Position numbers and translations under genes: made by a program. The notes beneath the pieces were generated by a model that did not search any database, was not told the DNA's origin, and saw only the letters and a list, made by a program, of their open reading frames with translations. Positions 1,049 to 11,004 of a DNA stretch of 64,000 nt are shown here, one piece after another. Within the stretch, counting starts at the first letter, position 1; each line of letters begins with the position of its first letter. Origin of the DNA: Isoalcanivorax indicus (lineage in GTDB: Bacteria > Pseudomonadota > Gammaproteobacteria > Pseudomonadales > Alcanivoracaceae); NCBI RefSeq assembly GCF_003259185.1, contig NZ_QGMP01000001.1:1674001-1738000 (forward strand), read 5' to 3'.

Positions 1049-1094
1049 AAAAAAAAGGCACCCACCGCCCGGAGGTGACCGGGCCGTGAGCGCC
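1049..1094 (-). terminator. Leader attenuator terminator of nirB
   Basis: On the minus strand a hairpin with a nine-pair outer stem (GGCGCTCAC with GTGGGTGCC, including G-U pairs) and an inner stem GCCCGG/CCGGGC is followed by eight T (plus-strand A at 1049-1056). It lies inside the nirB leader, 43 bases before the start codon, so it must be overridden for nirB to be expressed. Its left arm (1086-1094) shares bases 1088-1094 with the second ANTAR hairpin, making the two structures mutually exclusive. Confidence 0.88.
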
Positions 1095-1157
1095 TTTGCT
1101 CGCAATTTCGTCGTGATCTGTTCTGCGCCCCGCGCGGCTCGCCATTGAGCCGGGCGC
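1088..1157 (-). promoter_or_regulatory. ANTAR-type antiterminator hairpin pair in the nirB leader
   Basis: Hairpin P1 (1135-1152) has stem CGGCTC/GAGCCG and hexaloop AATGGC, with a possible lower stem GCGCC/GGCGC reaching 1125-1157. Hairpin P2 (1088-1101) has stem GAGC/GCTC and hexaloop AAAGGC. Both loops have A at position 1 and G at position 4, the known signature of RNA bound by ANTAR proteins such as NasR. P2 overlaps the terminator at 1049-1094. The inferred regulator is the NIT-ANTAR protein encoded at 9700-11004. Confidence 0.85.
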
Positions 1158-1175: not shown

Positions 1176-1192
1176 AGCAAGAGTTATGCCAG
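1176..1192 (-). promoter_or_regulatory. Sigma-54 promoter of nirB
   Basis: The minus strand reads CTGGCATAACTCTTGCTC: GG (1190-1189), ten bases, then GC (1178-1177), which fits the -24/-12 consensus TGGCAC-N5-TTGC. The predicted start near 1165 is just upstream of the first ANTAR hairpin, the arrangement known from the Klebsiella nas operon. Confidence 0.8.
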
Positions 1193-1612: not shown

Positions 1613-3088
1613 ATGGCTACACAGCACGCGCGACTCAATCTGCTGAAACTGTCCGAACCCCGCATCCGTCTGCTGCACCTGAGCTGGATGGCGTTCTTTG
1701 TCAGCTTTGTGGTGTGGTTCTCCCATGCCCCGCTGATGGGCGAAATCCGCGAGGTGTTCGATCTGACCAGCGATCAGGTCAAGGCCCTCCTTATTCTTAA
1801 TGTGGCCCTGACGATCCCCGCGCGGGTGGTGATCGGTTCACTGGTGGATCGCTTTGGTCCCCGGCGTGTGTTCGGCGGGCTGCTGATCATCGCCGCGTTG
1901 CCCTGCTGGGCGTTTGCGCTGTCCACGACCTACGAACAGCTTGCCGTGACCCGTCTGCTGCTCGGGTTTGTCGGCGCTGGATTCGTGGTCGGTATCCGCC
2001 TGATCAGTGAATGGTTTCCGGCCCGCGAAGTGGGCCTGGCAGAAGGCGTCTACGGCGGCTGGGGCAATTTCGGTTCCGCCGCCGCCGCCATGACGTTGCC
2101 AACCCTTGCGATGCTGTTCGGCGGCGAAAACGGCTGGCGCTGGGCCATTGCCAGCACCGGGCTGTTGTCCTGCATCTACGGGGTCATCTTTCTCTGGCGC
2201 GCGCGTAATACCCCGGCCGGCGCTTCCTATTTCCGCCCCAAGAAGGCCTCGGCCCTGGAAGTCAGCAGCCGTCGCGATCTCTACTTCTATATGGCCATGT
2301 GCGTGCCCCTGTACAGTGCGCTGCTGGTCATCGTCTGGCGACTGGGCCCGGGCCAGTTGGGCCTTTACGGCCTGAACGCGCAACTCGCGCTGGTGGCCAT
2401 CATCGTGAGTCTGGCCATCGTGCAGCTCTGGCAAATCTGGCGCGTGAATCACGCACGCCTGCGCGAAGGCGTGCCACAACACGACCGCTACCGCTTCCGT
2501 CAGGTCGCCATTCTTGATCTTGCCTATATGGTGACCTTCGGCTCAGAACTGGCCGTGGTCTCCATGCTGCCGTTGTTCTTCATCGACACCTTCGCACTGA
2601 GTGCGGTGTTGGCCGGGGTCCTGGCCTCAGGCTTTGCCTTCATGAACCTGGTGGCCCGTCCGGGGGGCGGCTGGCTGTCTGACCGCTTTGGCCGCAAACG
2701 CTCCCTCAGCATCCTGCTCTGCGGCCTGATGCTCGGCTATGGCCTGATGAGCCAGATCGGTAGCACCTGGCCTCTGGTGCTGGCCGTCATGGCGACCATG
2801 TGTTGCTCGTTCTTCGTGCAGGCCGGCGAAGGCGCCGTGTTTGCCACCGTGCCCCTGATCAAACGCCGTCTGACCGGACAGATCTCTGGCATGGTCGGTG
2901 CTTATGGCAATGCCGGGGCGGTGTGCTTCCTGACCGTACTGACGTTTGTTGATCCGTCGGTCTTCTTCCTGGTGATCGCCGGTTGCGCTGCCGTGACCCT
3001 GGCGGCGGTACAGTGGCTTGACGAACCCCGCGGGCATATTGCCGAAGTGGATGAGAACGGTCAGGTCCAGTTGATCGAGGTAAGCTGA
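1613..3088 (+). CDS. narK: Nitrate/nitrite transporter, NarK/NasA (NNP) family of MFS
   Basis: A 491-residue inner-membrane transporter that brings nitrate into the cell for assimilation. The start ATG at 1613 follows GGAG at 1604; the longer open frame from 1361 would run through the promoter and leader. Twelve hydrophobic segments are visible. Two glycine-rich nitrate signatures of the NNP family are present, [11 protein letters not shown] near residue 148 and GAYGNAGA near residue 429. A long central cytoplasmic stretch lies around residues 225-300, and the MFS A motif appears as DRFGPRR. The stop overlaps the ATG of the kinase/phosphatase gene by one base, so the two are co-translated. 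The pathway role (uptake rather than respiratory exchange) is inferred from the nirB/nrt/nasR context. Confidence 0.92.
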
Positions 3089-4809
3089 TGACGAGTATGC
3101 CGGACATGGCGGATACCCTGGACGTGCCACAAGGCTCACCACCCGGCACACCCCAGGGCGCCACGCAAGACGCGGCCACCAGCAGCTTGCGTGTGCGCGT
3201 GGGCCAGTGCAGCGAGTGCGGCGTAAAACCGCATAATCAGGATGCTGTGGCGGTGCGCTTGCCGGCGGGCGAACCGCTGCGCACCAAGGGTCTTGTGGCG
3301 GCGCTGGCCGACGGCCTCAGCTCCGCCGAGGCCGGTCGTGAGGCGGCGGAGGCCTGCGTGCTCGGTTTTATCAATGACTACTACGCCACCCCGTCACTCT
3401 GGAGTGTGCCGCGCTCGGCCCAGCGCGTGCTGGAAGCGCTTAACCGCTGGCTATGCCGCCGCACGCTCGCCGGTGAAGATCACCTGTGCACCCTGTCGGT
3501 GCTGATTCTTCGCTCGCGACTGGCGCACCTGTTCCAGGTGGGCGATTCACGTATCTGGCGGCTGCGCGGGCGACAGCTGGAATGCCTGACCGAGGACCAT
3601 AGCCGTCAGGCCGGTGGCCGGCGCCTGCTGACCCGCGCCATGGGCGGGGACACGCGGCTGGATGTCGATTACCGGCATTGCGATCTGCAACAGGGTGACA
3701 TTTTTCTGCTGACCAGCGATGGCGTCCATGATGCCCTGCCCTGGCCCGTGATCGAGGACACCCTGCTCGGCTCGGAAAACCCGCAAGTGGCGGCCGACAA
3801 CCTGGTGCGTTTTGCCCTGAATAATGGCAGCCGCGACAACGTCAGCTGCCAGGTGCTCGAAGTGATCAGCCTGCCGGATGCGAGCGCGGACGACGCTCTG
3901 GCCAGCCTGCGCGAGCTGCCCCTGCCGCCCCCCCTGGCACCAGGCATGCGCATTGACAACCTGACCGTCGTGCATGAACTCTACGCCAGTGCGCGCAGTC
4001 ATCTTTATCTGGTGCGCGACGGTGAAGGGCAGCTCAGCGCCCTCAAGGCGCCGTCGATCAATCTGGAAGACGAACCGGAGGCACTCACCCGCTTTGCCCT
4101 GGAGGGCTGGATCGGAGCACGTCTGCGTAGCGCACATTTGCTCCGGCCGCTGCCACCGGAGGGCCCGCAGAGTTGCCTCTATCAGCGACTCGAATACATC
4201 GACGGCGTCACCTTGCGGCAGTGGCTGCGCGAACACCCCGATGCAGCGGTGGAAGAAAAGCTCTACCTCGCCGATCAACTGCTCAATGGCCTGCGTGCCC
4301 TGCACCGCGCCGATGTCATTCATGGCGACCTGAAACCGGACAACATCATGGTCGACCGCCACGGGCTGGTGAAACTGATCGACTTCGGCAGCTGCTATTG
4401 TCGCGGCCTGGATCAGCCGCCACCACCACTGCCGCTGGGAACACGACACTACACCGCACGTCATGTCAGCGCCGGCGCTGCACCCGATGAACGCGCAGAC
4501 TTGTATGCCGCCGCCGTGATTATCCACGAAATGCTTACCGGCACCCTGCCCGACCCGGACAAACCCGCCCTGCGCCTGCAGCAACACAATGCCTTTGTGC
4601 CCATGTGGCTCAACCAGGCACTGCAACGTGCCCTGCACCCGGATGCCATCCCCTATGCCGATGCCGCCGAATTCCGGGCAGCACTGCGCAGCCCGGCCCA
4701 TCATCCGGCGGTCATCACTTCGCAGCAACGCAACACCTTGCGCGCCTGGCAGGCCAGCACCGTGGTCCTGCTGCTGTTGCTGCTGCTCAGCCTCGCCTTG
4801 CATGTGTGA
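3088..4809 (+). CDS. PP2C phosphatase / Ser-Thr protein kinase fusion with C-terminal membrane anchor
   Basis: This 573-residue bifunctional protein is translationally coupled to narK. Residues about 30-260 form a PP2C domain with metal-site aspartates (ALADGLSS near 75, LTSDGVHD near 211, SRDNVSCQ near 248). Residues about 290-545 form a Hanks-type kinase: ALKAP lysine near 320, catalytic loop HGDLKPDN at 412-419, DFG at 432. The last about 18 residues are a leucine-rich single membrane segment, giving a tail anchor with both enzymes in the cytoplasm. Genes of this architecture recur beside nitrate transporters in Pseudomonas-like bacteria but their substrate is not established. Phosphorylation of NarK or a nitrogen regulator is a reasonable guess only. 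Confidence 0.88.
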   Translation: MTSMPDMADTLDVPQGSPPGTPQGATQDAATSSLRVRVGQCSECGVKPHNQDAVAVRLPAGEPLRTKGLVAALADGLSSAEAGREAAEACVLGFINDYYATPSLWSVPRSAQRVLEALNRWLCRRTLAGEDHLCTLSVLILRSRLAHLFQVGDSRIWRLRGRQLECLTEDHSRQAGGRRLLTRAMGGDTRLDVDYRHCDLQQGDIFLLTSDGVHDALPWPVIEDTLLGSENPQVAADNLVRFALNNGSRDNVSCQVLEVISLPDASADDALASLRELPLPPPLAPGMRIDNLTVVHELYASARSHLYLVRDGEGQLSALKAPSINLEDEPEALTRFALEGWIGARLRSAHLLRPLPPEGPQSCLYQRLEYIDGVTLRQWLREHPDAAVEEKLYLADQLLNGLRALHRADVIHGDLKPDNIMVDRHGLVKLIDFGSCYCRGLDQPPPPLPLGTRHYTARHVSAGAAPDERADLYAAAVIIHEMLTGTLPDPDKPALRLQQHNAFVPMWLNQALQRALHPDAIPYADAAEFRAALRSPAHHPAVITSQQRNTLRAWQASTVVLLLLLLLSLALHV

Positions 4810-4852
4810 CCCTGGCATGCGGCGTCGTCCTCGCTCATTTTTCGGGCATGGT

Positions 4853-4880
4853 TGCACCGGGATAACGCAACTCCGGTGCC
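4853..4880. promoter_or_regulatory. TGCACC / GGTGCC half-sites upstream of nrtA
   Basis: Opposed half-sites TGCACC (4853-4858) and GGTGCC (4875-4880) lie about 125-150 bases upstream of the nrtA sigma-54 promoter. The halves resemble NtrC half-sites, but the 16-base gap is wider than the usual palindrome. No coding sequence was seen in 4810-5169; the rest of this gap holds the promoter, leader and terminator listed separately. Confidence 0.3.
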
Positions 4881-5002
4881 ACCTGCTCTCCTGCCAGCCA
4901 GGGAACGGACCTTTCGCTCACGCGTCGTAAGCCTCACAAGTCACTGATAAATATTTACTTATCCTGCGCATACCGCTGTCTGACCCGAGCCTTCCAGTAA
5001 AG

Positions 5003-5020
5003 CTGGCACACTTCCTGCTT
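5003..5020 (+). promoter_or_regulatory. Sigma-54 promoter of nrtABC
   Basis: CTGGCACACTTCCTGCTT has GG at 5005-5006, ten bases, GC at 5017-5018, close to the -24/-12 consensus. The predicted start near 5030 sits at the foot of the first leader hairpin. Confidence 0.8.
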
Positions 5021-5025
5021 TTATC

Positions 5026-5090
5026 CCTGTGTGCAACAGGATCAATGCGGGTCCTGTTTGCACAGGTCAATTTGTCGGGCAATGGCGCCC
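5026..5090 (+). promoter_or_regulatory. ANTAR-type antiterminator hairpin pair in the nrtA leader
   Basis: P1 has a nine-pair stem AACAGGATC/GGTCCTGTT (5035-5043 with 5050-5058) and hexaloop AATGCG; outer arms CCTGTG and CACAGG extend it, with small bulges. P2 (5077-5090) has stem GGGC/GCCC and hexaloop AATGGC. Both loops have A1 and G4. The right arm of P2 is part of the left arm of the terminator at 5086-5134, so P2 and the terminator cannot form together. Confidence 0.88.
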
Positions 5091-5134
5091 ACACGTATTT
5101 CGGCTTCGGCCTGGTACGCGTGGGCGTTTTTTTT
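5086..5134 (+). terminator. Leader attenuator terminator of nrtABC
   Basis: Arms CGCCCACACG (5086-5095) and CGCGTGGGCG (5117-5126) pair with a single mismatch and are followed by eight T (5127-5134), with a second T run at 5138-5145. It is 36 bases before the nrtA start codon, inside the leader, and forms an attenuator with the overlapping P2 hairpin. Confidence 0.9.
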
Positions 5135-5169
5135 GGATTTTTTTTCGGGAACGGAAAGAGGGATACGTC

Positions 5170-6504
5170 ATGAGCAAGGTACCGGGCCAGGCACAGGACA
5201 AGGCGTCACCGCTAAGCCACAGCGGCCAGCAACGCCGGGATTTTCTCAAGCAATCGGCAGCAGCGCTCGGCGGCGCCACGCTTGCTGCCCCGCTGCTGAC
5301 AGGTCGGGCGCGGGCCAGTGCCGGCACGCCTGAAACACGCACGGCCAAGTTGGGTTTTATTGCGCTGACGGATGCTGCCCCGCTTTTTGTCGCAGCGGAA
5401 AAAGGTTTCTTTGCCAAGCACGGCATGCCCGATGTCGAGGTGCTCAAACAATCGTCCTGGGGCACCACGCGGGACAATCTGGTGCTGGGGTCGCGCCGTA
5501 ACGGCATTGATGGTGCGCATATCCTGACGCCCATGCCCTACCTTATTTCCACCGGCGCCATGACGGCCAACAATCAGCCGACCCCGATGTATATTGTGGC
5601 CCGACTGAACCTGGCCGGGCAGTGCATTTCTGTGGGCCGGGAGTACGCCGATCTGAAAGTCGGCGTGGACACCACGGAGTTCGCCAGCGCGCTGGCCGCC
5701 AAACGTGCCCGGGGCGATGCCGTACGCGCGGCCATGACCTTTCCGGGCGGCACCCATGACCTGTGGATTCGTTACTGGCTGGCTGCCGGTGGCATTGATC
5801 CGAACAGCGATATTTCCACCATCGTGGTCCCACCCGCACAGATGGTGGCCAACATGCGCGTCGGCAGCATGGATACCTTCTGTGTCTGCGAACCGTGGAA
5901 CGAACAGCTGATCCGCCAGAATATCGGCTACACCGCCAACACCACCGGCGAGCTGTGGCACAACCATCCGGAAAAAGCACTCGGCCTGCGCGCCGATTAT
6001 GTCGAACAGAACCCCAATGCCACGAAAGCACTGATCAAGGCCGTCATGGAAGCGCAGATGTACTGCGAGCAACCGGAAAACATCGAAGAAGTGGCGCGCA
6101 TCTGCTCACGCCGTCGCTGGATCAACGCACCCTATGACGACATCATCCAGCGCATGCAGGGTCACTTCGACTATGGCACCGGTCGTGTGGTGGAAAACAG
6201 TCCGCATCGCATGCGCTACTGGAATGATCAGGCATCCTACCCGTTCAAGAGCCATGACCTCTGGTTCCTGACAGAAAACATCCGCTGGGGCTATCTGCCC
6301 CGTGATCTGGATATGCAGGCCCTGGTGGACAGCGTCAATCGCGAAGACCTCTGGCGGGCCGCCGCGGCGGAACTGGGTATCGACAAGTCAGCGATCCCCG
6401 AAGGCACCTCACGCGGCAAGGAAACTTTTTTTGACGGCAAGGTGTTTGATCCTGAAAACCCGCTTGCTTACCTGGACACCCTGGCCATCAAGCGCATGCG
6501 CTGA
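5170..6504 (+). CDS. nrtA: Nitrate ABC transporter substrate-binding protein NrtA, Tat-exported
   Basis: A 444-residue periplasmic nitrate/nitrite-binding protein of the NrtA/TauA-like family, feeding the NrtBC transporter. The ATG at 5170 follows GAGGG at 5158-5162; the longer frame from 5029 would include the leader hairpins and is rejected. A twin-arginine signal is clear: RRDFLK at residues 22-27, then an alanine-rich hydrophobic stretch ending near ARASA. The mature part begins with KLGFIALTDAAPLFVAAEKG, the usual start of this family, and has the length expected for NrtA. It is the first gene of nrtABC, with a sigma-54 promoter and an ANTAR attenuator upstream. Two nitrate uptake systems, NarK and Nrt, are therefore encoded in one locus. 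Confidence 0.93.
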   Translation: MSKVPGQAQDKASPLSHSGQQRRDFLKQSAAALGGATLAAPLLTGRARASAGTPETRTAKLGFIALTDAAPLFVAAEKGFFAKHGMPDVEVLKQSSWGTTRDNLVLGSRRNGIDGAHILTPMPYLISTGAMTANNQPTPMYIVARLNLAGQCISVGREYADLKVGVDTTEFASALAAKRARGDAVRAAMTFPGGTHDLWIRYWLAAGGIDPNSDISTIVVPPAQMVANMRVGSMDTFCVCEPWNEQLIRQNIGYTANTTGELWHNHPEKALGLRADYVEQNPNATKALIKAVMEAQMYCEQPENIEEVARICSRRRWINAPYDDIIQRMQGHFDYGTGRVVENSPHRMRYWNDQASYPFKSHDLWFLTENIRWGYLPRDLDMQALVDSVNREDLWRAAAAELGIDKSAIPEGTSRGKETFFDGKVFDPENPLAYLDTLAIKRMR

Positions 6505-6527: not shown

Positions 6528-7388
6528 ATGACGACTCACGCTTCTGTTTCTCCCCTGGCTTCCCTGGCCTCGCGTATGTCGGCGGCCAGCGACGTCTGGC
6601 CGCGCCTGCGCTATGTTTTGCTGGAGCGCATCCTGCCACCCGTACTGGTCACCACCGCGCTGCTGGTCATCTGGGAACTGCTGTGCCGTGGTGAAGGTGC
6701 GCTGCTGCCCGCGCCCAGTACCGTGGTCACAGACACCTGGGACCTGATCGTCAACCCCTTCTATGACTATGGCGGGAACGACGTCGGCATGGCCTGGCAG
6801 ATCCTGGCCTCGCTGGAACGGGTGGCCTACGGCTATACCCTGGCGGTGTTTGCCGGTGTCGGACTGGGCGTGCTGATCGGCCAGTCTACCTGGGCGATGC
6901 GCGGCCTTGATCCGATCTTCCAGGTACTGCGCACCGTACCGCCCCTGGCCTGGCTGCCCATTTCCCTGGCCGGTTTCCAGGACAGCAACCCCTCGGCCAT
7001 CTTCGTGATCTTCATTACCGCCATCTGGCCGATCATCATCAATACCTCGGTCGGCATCCGGAATATTCCCGAGGACTACCGCAACGTCTCGCGCGTGGTG
7101 CGTCTCAATGGCCACGAATATTTCCGCAAGATCATGTTACCGGCGGCCGCACCCTACATCTTCTCCGGGCTGCGCATTGGTGTGGGCCTGTCCTGGCTGG
7201 CGATTGTCGCCGCCGAAATGCTCATCGGTGGTGTCGGTATCGGCTTCTTTATCTGGGACGCCTGGAACGCCTCGCTCATCAGCGACATCGTTCTGGCACT
7301 GGTTTACGTCGGCATCGTCGGCTTCATGCTTGACCGGCTGGTAATGCTGGCAGGCAACTGGGTAACACGCGGAGAAGGAGGCAAATAA
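6528..7388 (+). CDS. nrtB: Nitrate ABC transporter permease NrtB
   Basis: A 286-residue inner-membrane permease of the BPD_transp_1 type, partner of NrtA and NrtC in ATP-driven nitrate import. Six or so hydrophobic segments are visible. The EAA-like coupling loop reads YRNVSRVVRLNGHEYFRKIMLPAAAPYIFSG broken across residues about 186-216, and the family segment PPLAWLPISLAGF is present near residue 143. It starts 23 bases after nrtA with GGAG at 6515-6518, and its stop overlaps the nrtC start (TAATG), so the three genes form one operon. Confidence 0.93.
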   Translation: MTTHASVSPLASLASRMSAASDVWPRLRYVLLERILPPVLVTTALLVIWELLCRGEGALLPAPSTVVTDTWDLIVNPFYDYGGNDVGMAWQILASLERVAYGYTLAVFAGVGLGVLIGQSTWAMRGLDPIFQVLRTVPPLAWLPISLAGFQDSNPSAIFVIFITAIWPIIINTSVGIRNIPEDYRNVSRVVRLNGHEYFRKIMLPAAAPYIFSGLRIGVGLSWLAIVAAEMLIGGVGIGFFIWDAWNASLISDIVLALVYVGIVGFMLDRLVMLAGNWVTRGEGGK

Positions 7389-8245
7389 TGAGCGCACATT
7401 ATCTGACCATCGAGAATGTCGACAAGACCTTCGTCAAGGGCAAAACCAGCAGTCACGTGCTCGACAAGGTGAACCTCAAGGTCGACAAGGGCGAATACAT
7501 CTCCATCATCGGCCATTCCGGTTGCGGCAAGTCCACGGTGCTGAATATCGTCGCCGGACTGCTGCCGGCCTCCTCCGGCGGGGTGATTCTGGATGGCGCG
7601 GAAGTCACTGCACCCGGACCGGATCGCGCGCTGGTGTTCCAGAACCATTCGCTGCTGCCCTGGCTGACGGTTTACGAGAACGTCGCCCTGGCCGTGAACA
7701 AGACGTTCCGCAAGACCATGAGCCGCGCCGAGCGTCACGAATGGATCTTGCACAATCTGGCCCTGGTGAACATGGGGCATGCTCTGGACAAGCGACCGGC
7801 GGAAATCTCCGGGGGTATGAAGCAGCGGGTCGGCATCGCCCGGGCGCTGGCCATGCAGCCCAAGGTGCTGCTGCTCGATGAACCCTTCGGCGCGCTGGAC
7901 GCGCTGACCCGCGCTCACCTGCAGGATGAGGTCATGCGCATTCAGGGTGAGCTGCACAACACCGTACTCATGATCACCCACGACGTGGATGAAGCGGTGC
8001 TGCTGTCGGACCGTATCGTGATGATGACCAACGGCCCGTCGGCAACCATCGGTGAGATACTGAACATCGAATTGCCGCGCCCGCGGGACCGCATCGCCCT
8101 GGCCGATGACCCCCGGTACAACCATTACAGGCAGGAAGTGCTGCGATTCCTGTACGAAAAGCAGCGCAAACTGGAGAAAATCGATGCCCATCGAAACAGC
8201 CGCAAGGCCACGGACGGCGCCGCCTTCAAGGCAGCGGGAACATAA
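7388..8245 (+). CDS. nrtC: Nitrate ABC transporter ATPase (NrtC/NrtD type)
   Basis: A 285-residue cytoplasmic ATPase. Walker A is GHSGCGKST (42-50), the Q-loop segment is VFQNHSLLPW, the signature is ISGGMKQR, Walker B is VLLLDEPF, and the H-loop is ITHDVDEAV. It lacks the NrtA-like C-terminal sensor domain of cyanobacterial NrtC and so resembles NrtD in length; one ATPase probably forms the homodimer. It overlaps nrtB by one base. No intrinsic terminator is apparent in the 64 bases before the next promoter. Confidence 0.92.
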   Translation: MSAHYLTIENVDKTFVKGKTSSHVLDKVNLKVDKGEYISIIGHSGCGKSTVLNIVAGLLPASSGGVILDGAEVTAPGPDRALVFQNHSLLPWLTVYENVALAVNKTFRKTMSRAERHEWILHNLALVNMGHALDKRPAEISGGMKQRVGIARALAMQPKVLLLDEPFGALDALTRAHLQDEVMRIQGELHNTVLMITHDVDEAVLLSDRIVMMTNGPSATIGEILNIELPRPRDRIALADDPRYNHYRQEVLRFLYEKQRKLEKIDAHRNSRKATDGAAFKAAGT

Positions 8246-8272: not shown

Positions 8273-8334
8273 TTGACAGAACTCATGGGTTCTATCGTAT
8301 CCTCGGGGCATGAGTTCTCCGCATGCCCCCGAGG
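8273..8334 (+). promoter_or_regulatory. Promoter and nested inverted repeats before the MpaB-like gene
   Basis: TTGACA at 8273-8278 is a perfect -35 box, with a weak -10 near 8295-8300. Two inverted repeats are interleaved: AGAACTCATG (8278-8287) with CATGAGTTCT (8309-8318), ten of ten; and CCTCGGGGCATG (8301-8312) with CATGCCCCCGAGG (8322-8334), one extra C. The second hairpin ends in the GAGG Shine-Dalgarno of the downstream gene and could either bind a repressor or hide the ribosome site. Confidence 0.5.
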
Positions 8335-8339
8335 TTACA

Positions 8340-9695
8340 ATGCTGTCACTGGACGCCCTGCGCGCGAAAGTAGAAAACCAGAAGACCCTGATCCCGTCAC
8401 TGTACGGTGATATCGATTTCTCCATGACGCCGGAACGCTTTACCGCCGACATCGCGGATACCTCACTGCTGCCGGCTGATTTTGCGCGCCGTTATCGTGC
8501 CGGCATCCTGGCTGACAGCGAACGCGTCGAACGCGCCCGACTCTACACGCTGCTCGGCGACAATGTGGCCGATGCCTATGCCGCGCTGGCACCGCAGTAC
8601 GGCATGCGCAAACTGATCAACATGCTCAAGCAGGCCTGCGACGAAGGCGTGGAGAACGTGGAGGACGCGCCACAGGAACTGGTGAATTTCATCCGCGAAA
8701 TGGAACAGGTGCCCGACTGGGTGGATATGGACCTGGTTCGCCAGGGCGCGCGCATCAGCCGCACCGTGATGGCCACCCTCAGCCCTTTTGCCATTCGCGG
8801 GGCCTTTATTGCCACCTTCATGAACAAGTATTCCGGCCTGCCCATGGCGCTGACCGGGGCGCTGTCCGGCCAGTCTGCGGTCCAGCGGGTCAACGAAACG
8901 GCCAGCTTCTTCACCACCGCCGCCCTGCCCGGCGCTCTGGAGCGCTACGGCCAGGGCTTCAAGGCCGCCGCCATGGTGCGGCTGATGCACTCGATGGTGC
9001 GCTTCAATATTCTCAAGCGCTCGAAAGTCTGGGACGTGGGCGTCTACGGGATTCCCATTCCCCAGGTGGACCAGATGCCGGCGGGCACCATTCCCGCGTT
9101 TCTCGCCGCCTTCAACACCGTGCGCAAGGGCAAGAAGGCATTCGGCCCCTCCGACCGTGCGGTTGCGGAACTGTGTCGCTACCAGAGTTATCTGCTGGGG
9201 CTGCCCGAGGATCTGCTGCCTGCCGACCCGCAGGACATTTTCGATGTGATGATCACCTACTCCGGCACCCTGCGTGACGGCTATGACGACGCCACCTGTG
9301 GCGAACTGGTGCGCGCCACCATGGGCGCCTACCGCCCCAGGGACAAGTCGTTGCGCAGTCGTATCTTCAACACCGCCGAGCGGGGCTTTGCGCGGGTTTT
9401 CTTCACCCGCACCTTCCTGCGTGGCGAATCCCGATCACGCGCGAGTCTGATGGGCGTCGAGCCGCGCCTGTTCGATTACGCCATGTTTGCCGCCAGCAGT
9501 CTGTATATCCTGCCGCAGATGCAGGCCCACGCCCTGCTGCGCCGTGTTCCCGTTGCCAACGAGATTGCCGACGCGTTCCTGATCCGCAAACTCAATCGCA
9601 TGCTGGTGGAATACGGCCACGCGGAATATGTCACCGATGCCAGCCAGTATCGCGAACACGGCAGCAGCGAGACCCCCGCCAGAAAGAGCGCCTGA
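8340..9695 (+). CDS. Oxygenase MpaB family protein (DUF2236)
   Basis: A 451-residue protein of the DUF2236 family, which includes fungal MpaB oxygenase and the bacterial latex-clearing protein; members are heme or metal oxygenases but the substrate here is unknown. ATG 8340 is preferred because GAGG at 8331-8334 is correctly spaced; an in-frame ATG at 8310 lies inside the inverted repeat and lacks a ribosome site. Family-like stretches are AIRGAFIATFMNKYSGLP and RVNETASFFTTA in the middle, and a conserved arginine/histidine-rich part around VRLMHSMVRFNILKRS. It sits between nrtC and nasR but has its own sigma-70 type promoter, so a nitrate role is not implied. A second, shorter paralogue lies at 39867. 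Confidence 0.8.
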   Translation: MLSLDALRAKVENQKTLIPSLYGDIDFSMTPERFTADIADTSLLPADFARRYRAGILADSERVERARLYTLLGDNVADAYAALAPQYGMRKLINMLKQACDEGVENVEDAPQELVNFIREMEQVPDWVDMDLVRQGARISRTVMATLSPFAIRGAFIATFMNKYSGLPMALTGALSGQSAVQRVNETASFFTTAALPGALERYGQGFKAAAMVRLMHSMVRFNILKRSKVWDVGVYGIPIPQVDQMPAGTIPAFLAAFNTVRKGKKAFGPSDRAVAELCRYQSYLLGLPEDLLPADPQDIFDVMITYSGTLRDGYDDATCGELVRATMGAYRPRDKSLRSRIFNTAERGFARVFFTRTFLRGESRSRASLMGVEPRLFDYAMFAASSLYILPQMQAHALLRRVPVANEIADAFLIRKLNRMLVEYGHAEYVTDASQYREHGSSETPARKSA

Positions 9696-9699
9696 CGCG

Positions 9700-11004
9700 T
9701 CAGTTGCCCAGCACATCGGCCATGGCCACCACGGCACGCGCTACTTCGATCAGACGCTTGCCCTGGTTCATGGCCATCTGCCGCAGCAGGCGATGGGCTT
9801 CGTCTTCCTGCAGCTTGCGATGTTTCATCAGCAACGCCTTGGCACGCTCCAGCACCTTGCGCTCTTCCAGCGCTTCGCGTGCCGCATTCAGTTCATCCTG
9901 CATGCGCTGCAGACGCTGCCCCTGGGTCTGCACCATCTCGATAATCGCCCGCCCCAGTTGCGGGCTGACGCCTTCGGTGTCATACCGCTCCGGCGTCTCA
10001 CCCTGCCCGTCCGCACTGCTGCCGGTGGCACAGAACACCATGAAAGACTCCCCTTGCCCGTCATCGGCATCCAGCAGTTGTTCGATCAGTGACTGATGGC
10101 GGGCCAGCCGCTCACGGGCTTCATGCAGTTTTTCTTCACACAGGCTTTGCAGGCGCTGCTCAAGATGGTCTTCCACCCGCTTCATGGCATCGATGCGTTC
10201 TGTGGTCACCTGGAACCAGCGATCTGCCTGTTCTGCTGTCAGCGACGACGGCAACAGCCCGGTGCAGGCCATGCGCCGGAAACGCTCGACCTCCGCCTGG
10301 TCGGTGCCCGCCAGCAGCGCCTGCCAGAGCGCCACGCTGTCCGGGTCGGCAAAGCCGGTGAAGATTTCGAAACAGCGCTCCTGTGCCTCGATCAGGTGCT
10401 GCATGCGCCGCGCCTGCTCGATATCGAATTCACCCCGGGCGAACCCGGCCGCACCCACCGCCCGTTCCTGACCGGCCGTTTCCTTGCCCTGCATCAGGTT
10501 GAACATGGCCACCAGCATCGCCGAGATGGTCGGGTCCATGGCGCTGTCTGCAGCCTCGAACACCACAGCCAGCAAGGCACGCACCAGTTCGCTGTATTGA
10601 TGAACGGCCTGTTCGGGTGCGAGTTTCAATGCCCGTACCCGGGCGCGCATGGCCGACAGATCACCCAGCACATGCACAGCATGGGCGATGCGGCTGAACA
10701 GACGCGCACCACCCTGCACTCCGCTGGTGCGCGTGCCGACCTGTTTCAGTGCAGAAAAGAAGCCCTGCATGGCGCCATCGGCGTCCGCGCTCAGTGCCTG
10801 GAGCTGGTGGGCAAAGCGCTCGCCATCAGACCCCAGGAACACGTTGGACGCGCCGCGCTCGCGCTGCAGGGCATGGACCAGGTTGCTGATCGCCGCCACC
10901 AGCTGCCCCATGCGCAGAAAGTGCGCGAGACCGTCGATCTCGCACTGTTTGGATGCAATCAGAAAATCGGTGGCGCAGGGGCGCGCGCTATCCGCTTCGG
11001 ACAT
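9700..11004 (-). CDS. nasR: Nitrate-responsive ANTAR antiterminator NasR (NIT plus ANTAR domains)
   Basis: A 434-residue cytoplasmic RNA-binding regulator. Residues about 40-290 are helical and match the NIT nitrate/nitrite-sensing domain, including the recognisable ALQRERGASNVFLGS segment. Residues about 355-432 form an ANTAR domain with the coiled coil (ALEERKVLERAKALLMKH) and the three-helix end with LQEDEAHRLLRQMAMNQGKR. Klebsiella NasR, of similar size, binds nitrate or nitrite and disrupts a leader terminator. Here the targets are most likely the three hairpin-pair leaders at 1088-1157, 1455-1503 and 5026-5090. The gene lies 68 bases downstream of trhO in the same direction and shows no ANTAR hairpins of its own. 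Confidence 0.9.
   Translation of the reverse strand: MSEADSARPCATDFLIASKQCEIDGLAHFLRMGQLVAAISNLVHALQRERGASNVFLGSDGERFAHQLQALSADADGAMQGFFSALKQVGTRTSGVQGGARLFSRIAHAVHVLGDLSAMRARVRALKLAPEQAVHQYSELVRALLAVVFEAADSAMDPTISAMLVAMFNLMQGKETAGQERAVGAAGFARGEFDIEQARRMQHLIEAQERCFEIFTGFADPDSVALWQALLAGTDQAEVERFRRMACTGLLPSSLTAEQADRWFQVTTERIDAMKRVEDHLEQRLQSLCEEKLHEARERLARHQSLIEQLLDADDGQGESFMVFCATGSSADGQGETPERYDTEGVSPQLGRAIIEMVQTQGQRLQRMQDELNAAREALEERKVLERAKALLMKHRKLQEDEAHRLLRQMAMNQGKRLIEVARAVVAMADVLGN

Follow-up and report, generated by a model that had tools for sequence, protein, structure and literature searches.

What controls transcription of the nitrate transporter genes nrtABC in Isoalcanivorax indicus? 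The genes lie within the 64,000-nucleotide stretch of the genome analysed here (the window), and an initial annotation had proposed that the leader preceding nrtA is a complete ANTAR attenuator, the second in the window beside that of nirB. Our analysis favors this reading: with a probability of roughly 0.93, we consider the nrtABC leader to be a transcription attenuator under the control of NasR.

Gene content of the locus

The window carries nirB (minus strand), followed by genes for a NarK-type transporter, a kinase/phosphatase fusion, nrtA, nrtB, nrtC and an MpaB-like oxygenase (all plus strand), and then nasR (minus strand).

3088-4809, plus strand: PP2C phosphatase-serine/threonine kinase fusion, following the NarK-type gene immediately and preceding the nrtA leader
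5170-6504, plus strand: nrtA, nitrate-binding protein of an ABC transporter (NMT1_2 family, Tat signal), ATG at 5170, preceded by AAAGAGGG
6528-7388, plus strand: nrtB, nitrate ABC transporter permease (TIGR01183, 317.7 bits, over the cut-off)
7388-8245, plus strand: nrtC/D, nitrate ABC transporter ATPase (TIGR01184, 352.1 bits, over the cut-off)
8310-9695, plus strand: MpaB/Lcp-like oxygenase, 3' of nrtC and in the same direction (PF09995, weak match)
9700-11004, minus strand: nasR, NIT and ANTAR one-component nitrate-responsive antiterminator (PF08376, E 1.2e-57; PF03861, E 7.8e-18)

In sister genomes the phosphatase/kinase fusion gene stays beside the NarK-type gene; the oxygenase gene is missing between nrtC and nasR in two of them (G001 and G003). 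Behind nirB, outside the window, an 893-amino-acid protein is encoded that reads, by its N-terminal sequence, like a molybdopterin nitrate reductase.

Elements of the nrtA leader

The intergenic region ahead of nrtA contains a promoter element, two hairpins and an intrinsic terminator.

5004-5019, plus strand: sigma-54 element TGGCACACTTCCTGCT, from sequence reading, with a predicted +1 at 5030
5030-5064, plus strand: P1 hairpin, 14 pairs with one bulged base, nine of them contiguous (folding and scanner)
5073-5093, plus strand: P2 antiterminator hairpin, seven pairs with one bulged C (scanner and folding)
5084-5092 and 5120-5128, plus strand: stem of an intrinsic terminator with an inner hairpin, T tract of eight T at 5127-5134 (scanner and folding)

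The sigma-54 promoter named in the initial annotation is present: GG at -24 (5005-5006) and GC at -12 (5017-5018) stand ten bases apart, TGGCACACTTCCTGC, in the spacing TGGC-N9-GC, and the element is kept in relatives. No sigma-70-like promoter was found in 4800-5300. Candidate NtrC sites in the window were none better than two mismatches, a quality of site that occurs there about every 600 bases, and no convincing NtrC site was found upstream of either the nrtA or the nirB promoter; candidates with one mismatch are present in G001 and G003.

The base of P1 coincides with the predicted +1 at 5030. Its loop, AATGCG (5044-5049), has both A1 and G4 and is closed by the pair C5043-G5050. P1 had been described as a nine-pair stem; the loop and nine contiguous pairs are as described, and the full stem comes to 14 pairs with one bulge. 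A linker of 18 nt separates the contiguous stems of P1 and P2. The P2 stem consists of GGGC paired with GCCC and then TGT with ACA across the bulged C, and the expected loop AATGGC was located at 5081-5086, again with A1 and G4 (closing pair C5080-G5087). The terminator's 5' arm is built from P2 loop positions 4-6 plus the P2 3' arm. Terminator, eight-T tract and overlap with P2 were all confirmed, with the extent of the overlap corrected from 5086-5090 to 5084-5092. Every element of the proposed attenuator could be read directly, and the leader was found again by an independent scanner. Rfam returned no match on this leader at gathering thresholds; a Spot 42 hit obtained with E up to 1 scored 18.5 bits against a cut-off of 80 bits, and we took this weak match as chance.

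Folding of the nrtA and nirB leaders

The full nrtA leader folded with a z score of -4.87 relative to 200 dinucleotide shuffles. For complete leaders, the terminator form was more stable than a forced P1 plus P2 form, by 9.5 kcal/mol for nrtA and by 13.3 kcal/mol for nirB. When the nrtA RNA was cut 7-34 nt past the P2 loop, before the 3' arm of the terminator, it folded P1 and P2 or retained the P2 core. P2 and the intrinsic terminator that precedes the first gene were mutually exclusive in these foldings, and the modeled order of folding is that expected of an attenuator whose default outcome is termination.

A second leader at nirB and the expectation from chance

The nirB gene is preceded by the same elements on the opposite strand.

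1177-1191, minus strand: sigma-54 element of the nirB leader, TGGCATAACTCTTGC, from sequence reading, with a predicted +1 at 1165
1049-1156, minus strand: nirB attenuator, with P1 loop AATGGC at 1146-1141, P2 loop AAAGGC at 1097-1092 and T tract at 1056-1049

We defined a leader for scanning as two A..G.. hexaloops with C-G closing pairs and stems of at least four pairs, within 90 nt, and with a terminator overlapping P2. On both strands of the window this rule matched in exactly two places, the nrtA and nirB leaders, compared with two matches in 5.12 Mb of composition-matched first-order Markov sequence and none when the rule was made stricter. The earlier argument that the pair of leaders is not a product of chance is borne out by these counts. 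That the nrtA leader repeats the geometry of nirB is correct for the order of elements and their overlap, and not for exact distances (37 nt from loop to loop in the nrtA leader versus 49 nt in the nirB leader). A whole-genome search for P2 followed by a T tract also returned only these two leaders, although, as a pattern search, it may have overlooked any leader with a P2 different from CAANGGCG.

The NasR regulator

A cognate ANTAR protein is encoded in the same genome, 3 to 5 kb from the nrtA leader: nasR is the only ANTAR gene found (one ANTAR match). Its product has an N-terminal NIT domain and a C-terminal ANTAR domain, with both matches spanning nearly the full profiles, and its best match in the PDB is the nitrate regulatory protein 4akk (E 2e-61). 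In the alignment to 4akk, the nitrate-pocket pair E175/R176 is retained, and the Klebsiella oxytoca RNA-binding residues R340, K345, K347 and R366 correspond to R, R, K and R; a K345R form of K. oxytoca NasR has been reported to behave like wild type. Some of the autoinhibition contacts of the K. oxytoca protein, in contrast, are not kept: R193, Q194, W362 and N373 are A, R, H and G. The off state of the window NasR may therefore be held differently, and the interface between its NIT and ANTAR domains may differ.

Conservation of the leaders within the genus

P2-terminator matches were obtained in all six genus genomes that have nasR (the window genome included) and were confined to the nas locus. 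The nirB leader is intact in all six. One genus genome, which lacks nasR and nrtA and has no close nirB, gave no leader match in the pattern search.

The initial annotation had suggested comparing the nrtABC leader in related genomes. Four genus genomes have nrtABC: the window genome, two with a readable leader, and one whose contig starts inside nrtA. In both congeners with readable sequence upstream of nrtA the leader is kept, with bases of the P1 stem changed and P2 invariant. Across the three nrtA leaders, where P1 bases have changed, pairing mostly survives as G-U, and G003 has lost one pair; the case for covariation therefore depends on a wider set of leaders.

Two genomes without nrtABC (G004 and G006) have a sigma-54 promoter and an ANTAR leader at the corresponding place of the locus, ahead of a gene for a formate/nitrite-family transporter. 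In addition, G001 and G003 each have a divergent second nrt-like ABC operon with its own leader; the binding protein it encodes is about 36% identical to NrtA.

5662-6700 of L150, minus strand: formate/nitrite-family transporter with its leader, G006
6900-7900 of L151, plus strand: formate/nitrite-family transporter with its leader, G004
7590-10982 of L148, plus strand: second nrt-like operon
6863-10250 of L149, minus strand: second nrt-like operon

In the second nrt-like operon of G001 the P1 loop is GACGAT, the sole departure from A1 among 13 leaders of the genus. The odds seem to us about even that the sigma-54 promoter and ANTAR leader form a portable module, one that keeps its place in the nas locus whatever nitrate or nitrite importer follows it: nrtABC in the window, the formate/nitrite-family transporter in two sister genomes and the divergent second nrt-like operon in two others.

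Leaders at NasR loci of other bacteria

The scanner also matched at 59 of 80 NasR loci taken from other genomes, and several of the scanner-negative loci, including one of Serratia and one of Prodigiosinella, hold a looser version of the leader. The sigma-54 motif TGGC-N9-GC lay at most 100 nt upstream of the P1 loop in 55 of 57 leaders with strong terminators versus 10% of random windows. Because MAFFT misaligned the P1 stems of this mixed set, we counted pairs outward from each loop instead of fitting a covariance model. P1 pairs 5-8 are not part of the scanner rule; they were formed in 44, 40, 30 and 37 of 52 leaders versus shuffled means of 24.5, 22.5, 18.6 and 19.8, and they display several pair types.

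Other regularities were seen among the leaders in L032-L111. Distances from the predicted +1 to the P1 loop cluster near 12 and near 36 nt. The P1 loops vary at positions 5-6, the P2 loop is AANGGC in all 57, and P2 loop bases 4-6 double as terminator stem.

Alternative explanations

The terminator could be nothing other than the end of the upstream kinase/phosphatase transcript, with P1 and P2 as chance hairpins. It does lie 3' of that gene, which ends at 4809, and a transcript reading through would meet it; however, the sigma-54 element lies past the end of that gene and ahead of the terminator, random sequence seldom shows the dual-loop signature, and the same arrangement recurs at nirB and is conserved before different transporter genes in sister genomes. 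We judge this explanation very improbable. Attenuation by a leader peptide deserves equally little credence. A frame is open from an ATG in the P1 loop (5045) to a TGA that overlaps the nrtA start (5173), but the ATG, which has no ribosome binding site, is separated from the predicted +1 by only some 15 nt, and no run of regulatory codons was seen in the frame. In relatives the frame is either fused in frame to nrtA (G001) or shifted (G003), and we dropped the leader-peptide explanation because of this lack of conservation.

A different question is whether the reader of the leader, taken as a genuine ANTAR target, is not NasR but a NasT-type response regulator like those of Pseudomonas or Paracoccus. 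Other genera of the same family do encode shorter proteins whose match to NasR is confined to its ANTAR end. The single ANTAR gene found in this genome, however, is fused to a NIT domain, which makes a NasT-type reader highly unlikely here. Control by NasR is well supported at the level of sequence, where everything required of a NasR-type ANTAR attenuator is present.

Proposed mechanism

The predictions that NasR binds the nrtABC leader, that nitrate is needed and that readthrough follows come by analogy from work on NasR and nasF of K. oxytoca (nasF is the counterpart of nrtA). Under nitrogen limitation, the sigma-54 promoter, presumably under NtrC control, would initiate transcription where P1 begins. 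In the default state, the terminator would form from 5084 on and stop RNA polymerase at the T tract. Once the NIT domain of NasR has bound nitrate or nitrite, the ANTAR domains would engage the A1/G4 loops of both hairpins and hold P2 in place; the terminator would be deprived of its 5' arm and nrtABC would be transcribed. The matching leader would control nirB and probably also the genes that follow, as far as a nasA-like gene. With matching leaders at nrtABC and nirB, nitrate uptake and reduction would share one control with two inputs, nitrogen limitation acting via the promoter and nitrate via the leader.

Relation to known systems and significance

The window leaders resemble the NasR/nasF system of K. 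oxytoca (PMC3369936, PMC7496416) in their NIT-ANTAR protein, the A1/G4 hexaloops of P1 and P2, the overlap of P2 with the terminator and the position of the target leader before nitrate assimilation genes. Whereas K. oxytoca has a single nasFEDCBA operon, nrtABC and nirB are here transcribed separately, each behind a leader of its own. The same RNA motif with overlapping terminators appears in the passages of Ramesh et al. 2012 (PMC3369931) that describe ANTAR dual-hexaloop leaders found by covariance search; these precede genes for nitrate and nitrite transport and for nitrite reductase, with several per genome forming regulons. Alcanivorax-group leaders are not mentioned in those passages, although the supplementary tables of that paper may already list them, and the one paper found that joins Alcanivorax with antitermination concerned a phage. 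Antitermination in a leader also governs nirBD-PA1779-cobA of P. aeruginosa, as far as the work cited as reference 10 in PMC3795266 is summarized there; this is likewise an assimilatory nirB(D) system with antitermination-type leader control, but it is tied to NasS-NasT and not to a one-component NasR.

Mechanism and motif are thus already known (PMC3369931, PMC3369936, PMC7496416), and the nrtABC leader is a sound further example. The minor new points are the leader before the formate/nitrite transporter in two sister genomes and that of the divergent second nrt-like operon in two others. The findings extend NasR-type attenuation to an Alcanivorax-group bacterium and indicate that the genome's only ANTAR protein may act on both nitrate uptake and nitrate reduction through two separate leaders. 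The leaders of nrtA, nirB, the second nrt-like operon and the formate/nitrite transporter form a compact natural set, presumably read by one kind of protein, which would be useful for defining ANTAR recognition beyond A1 and G4.
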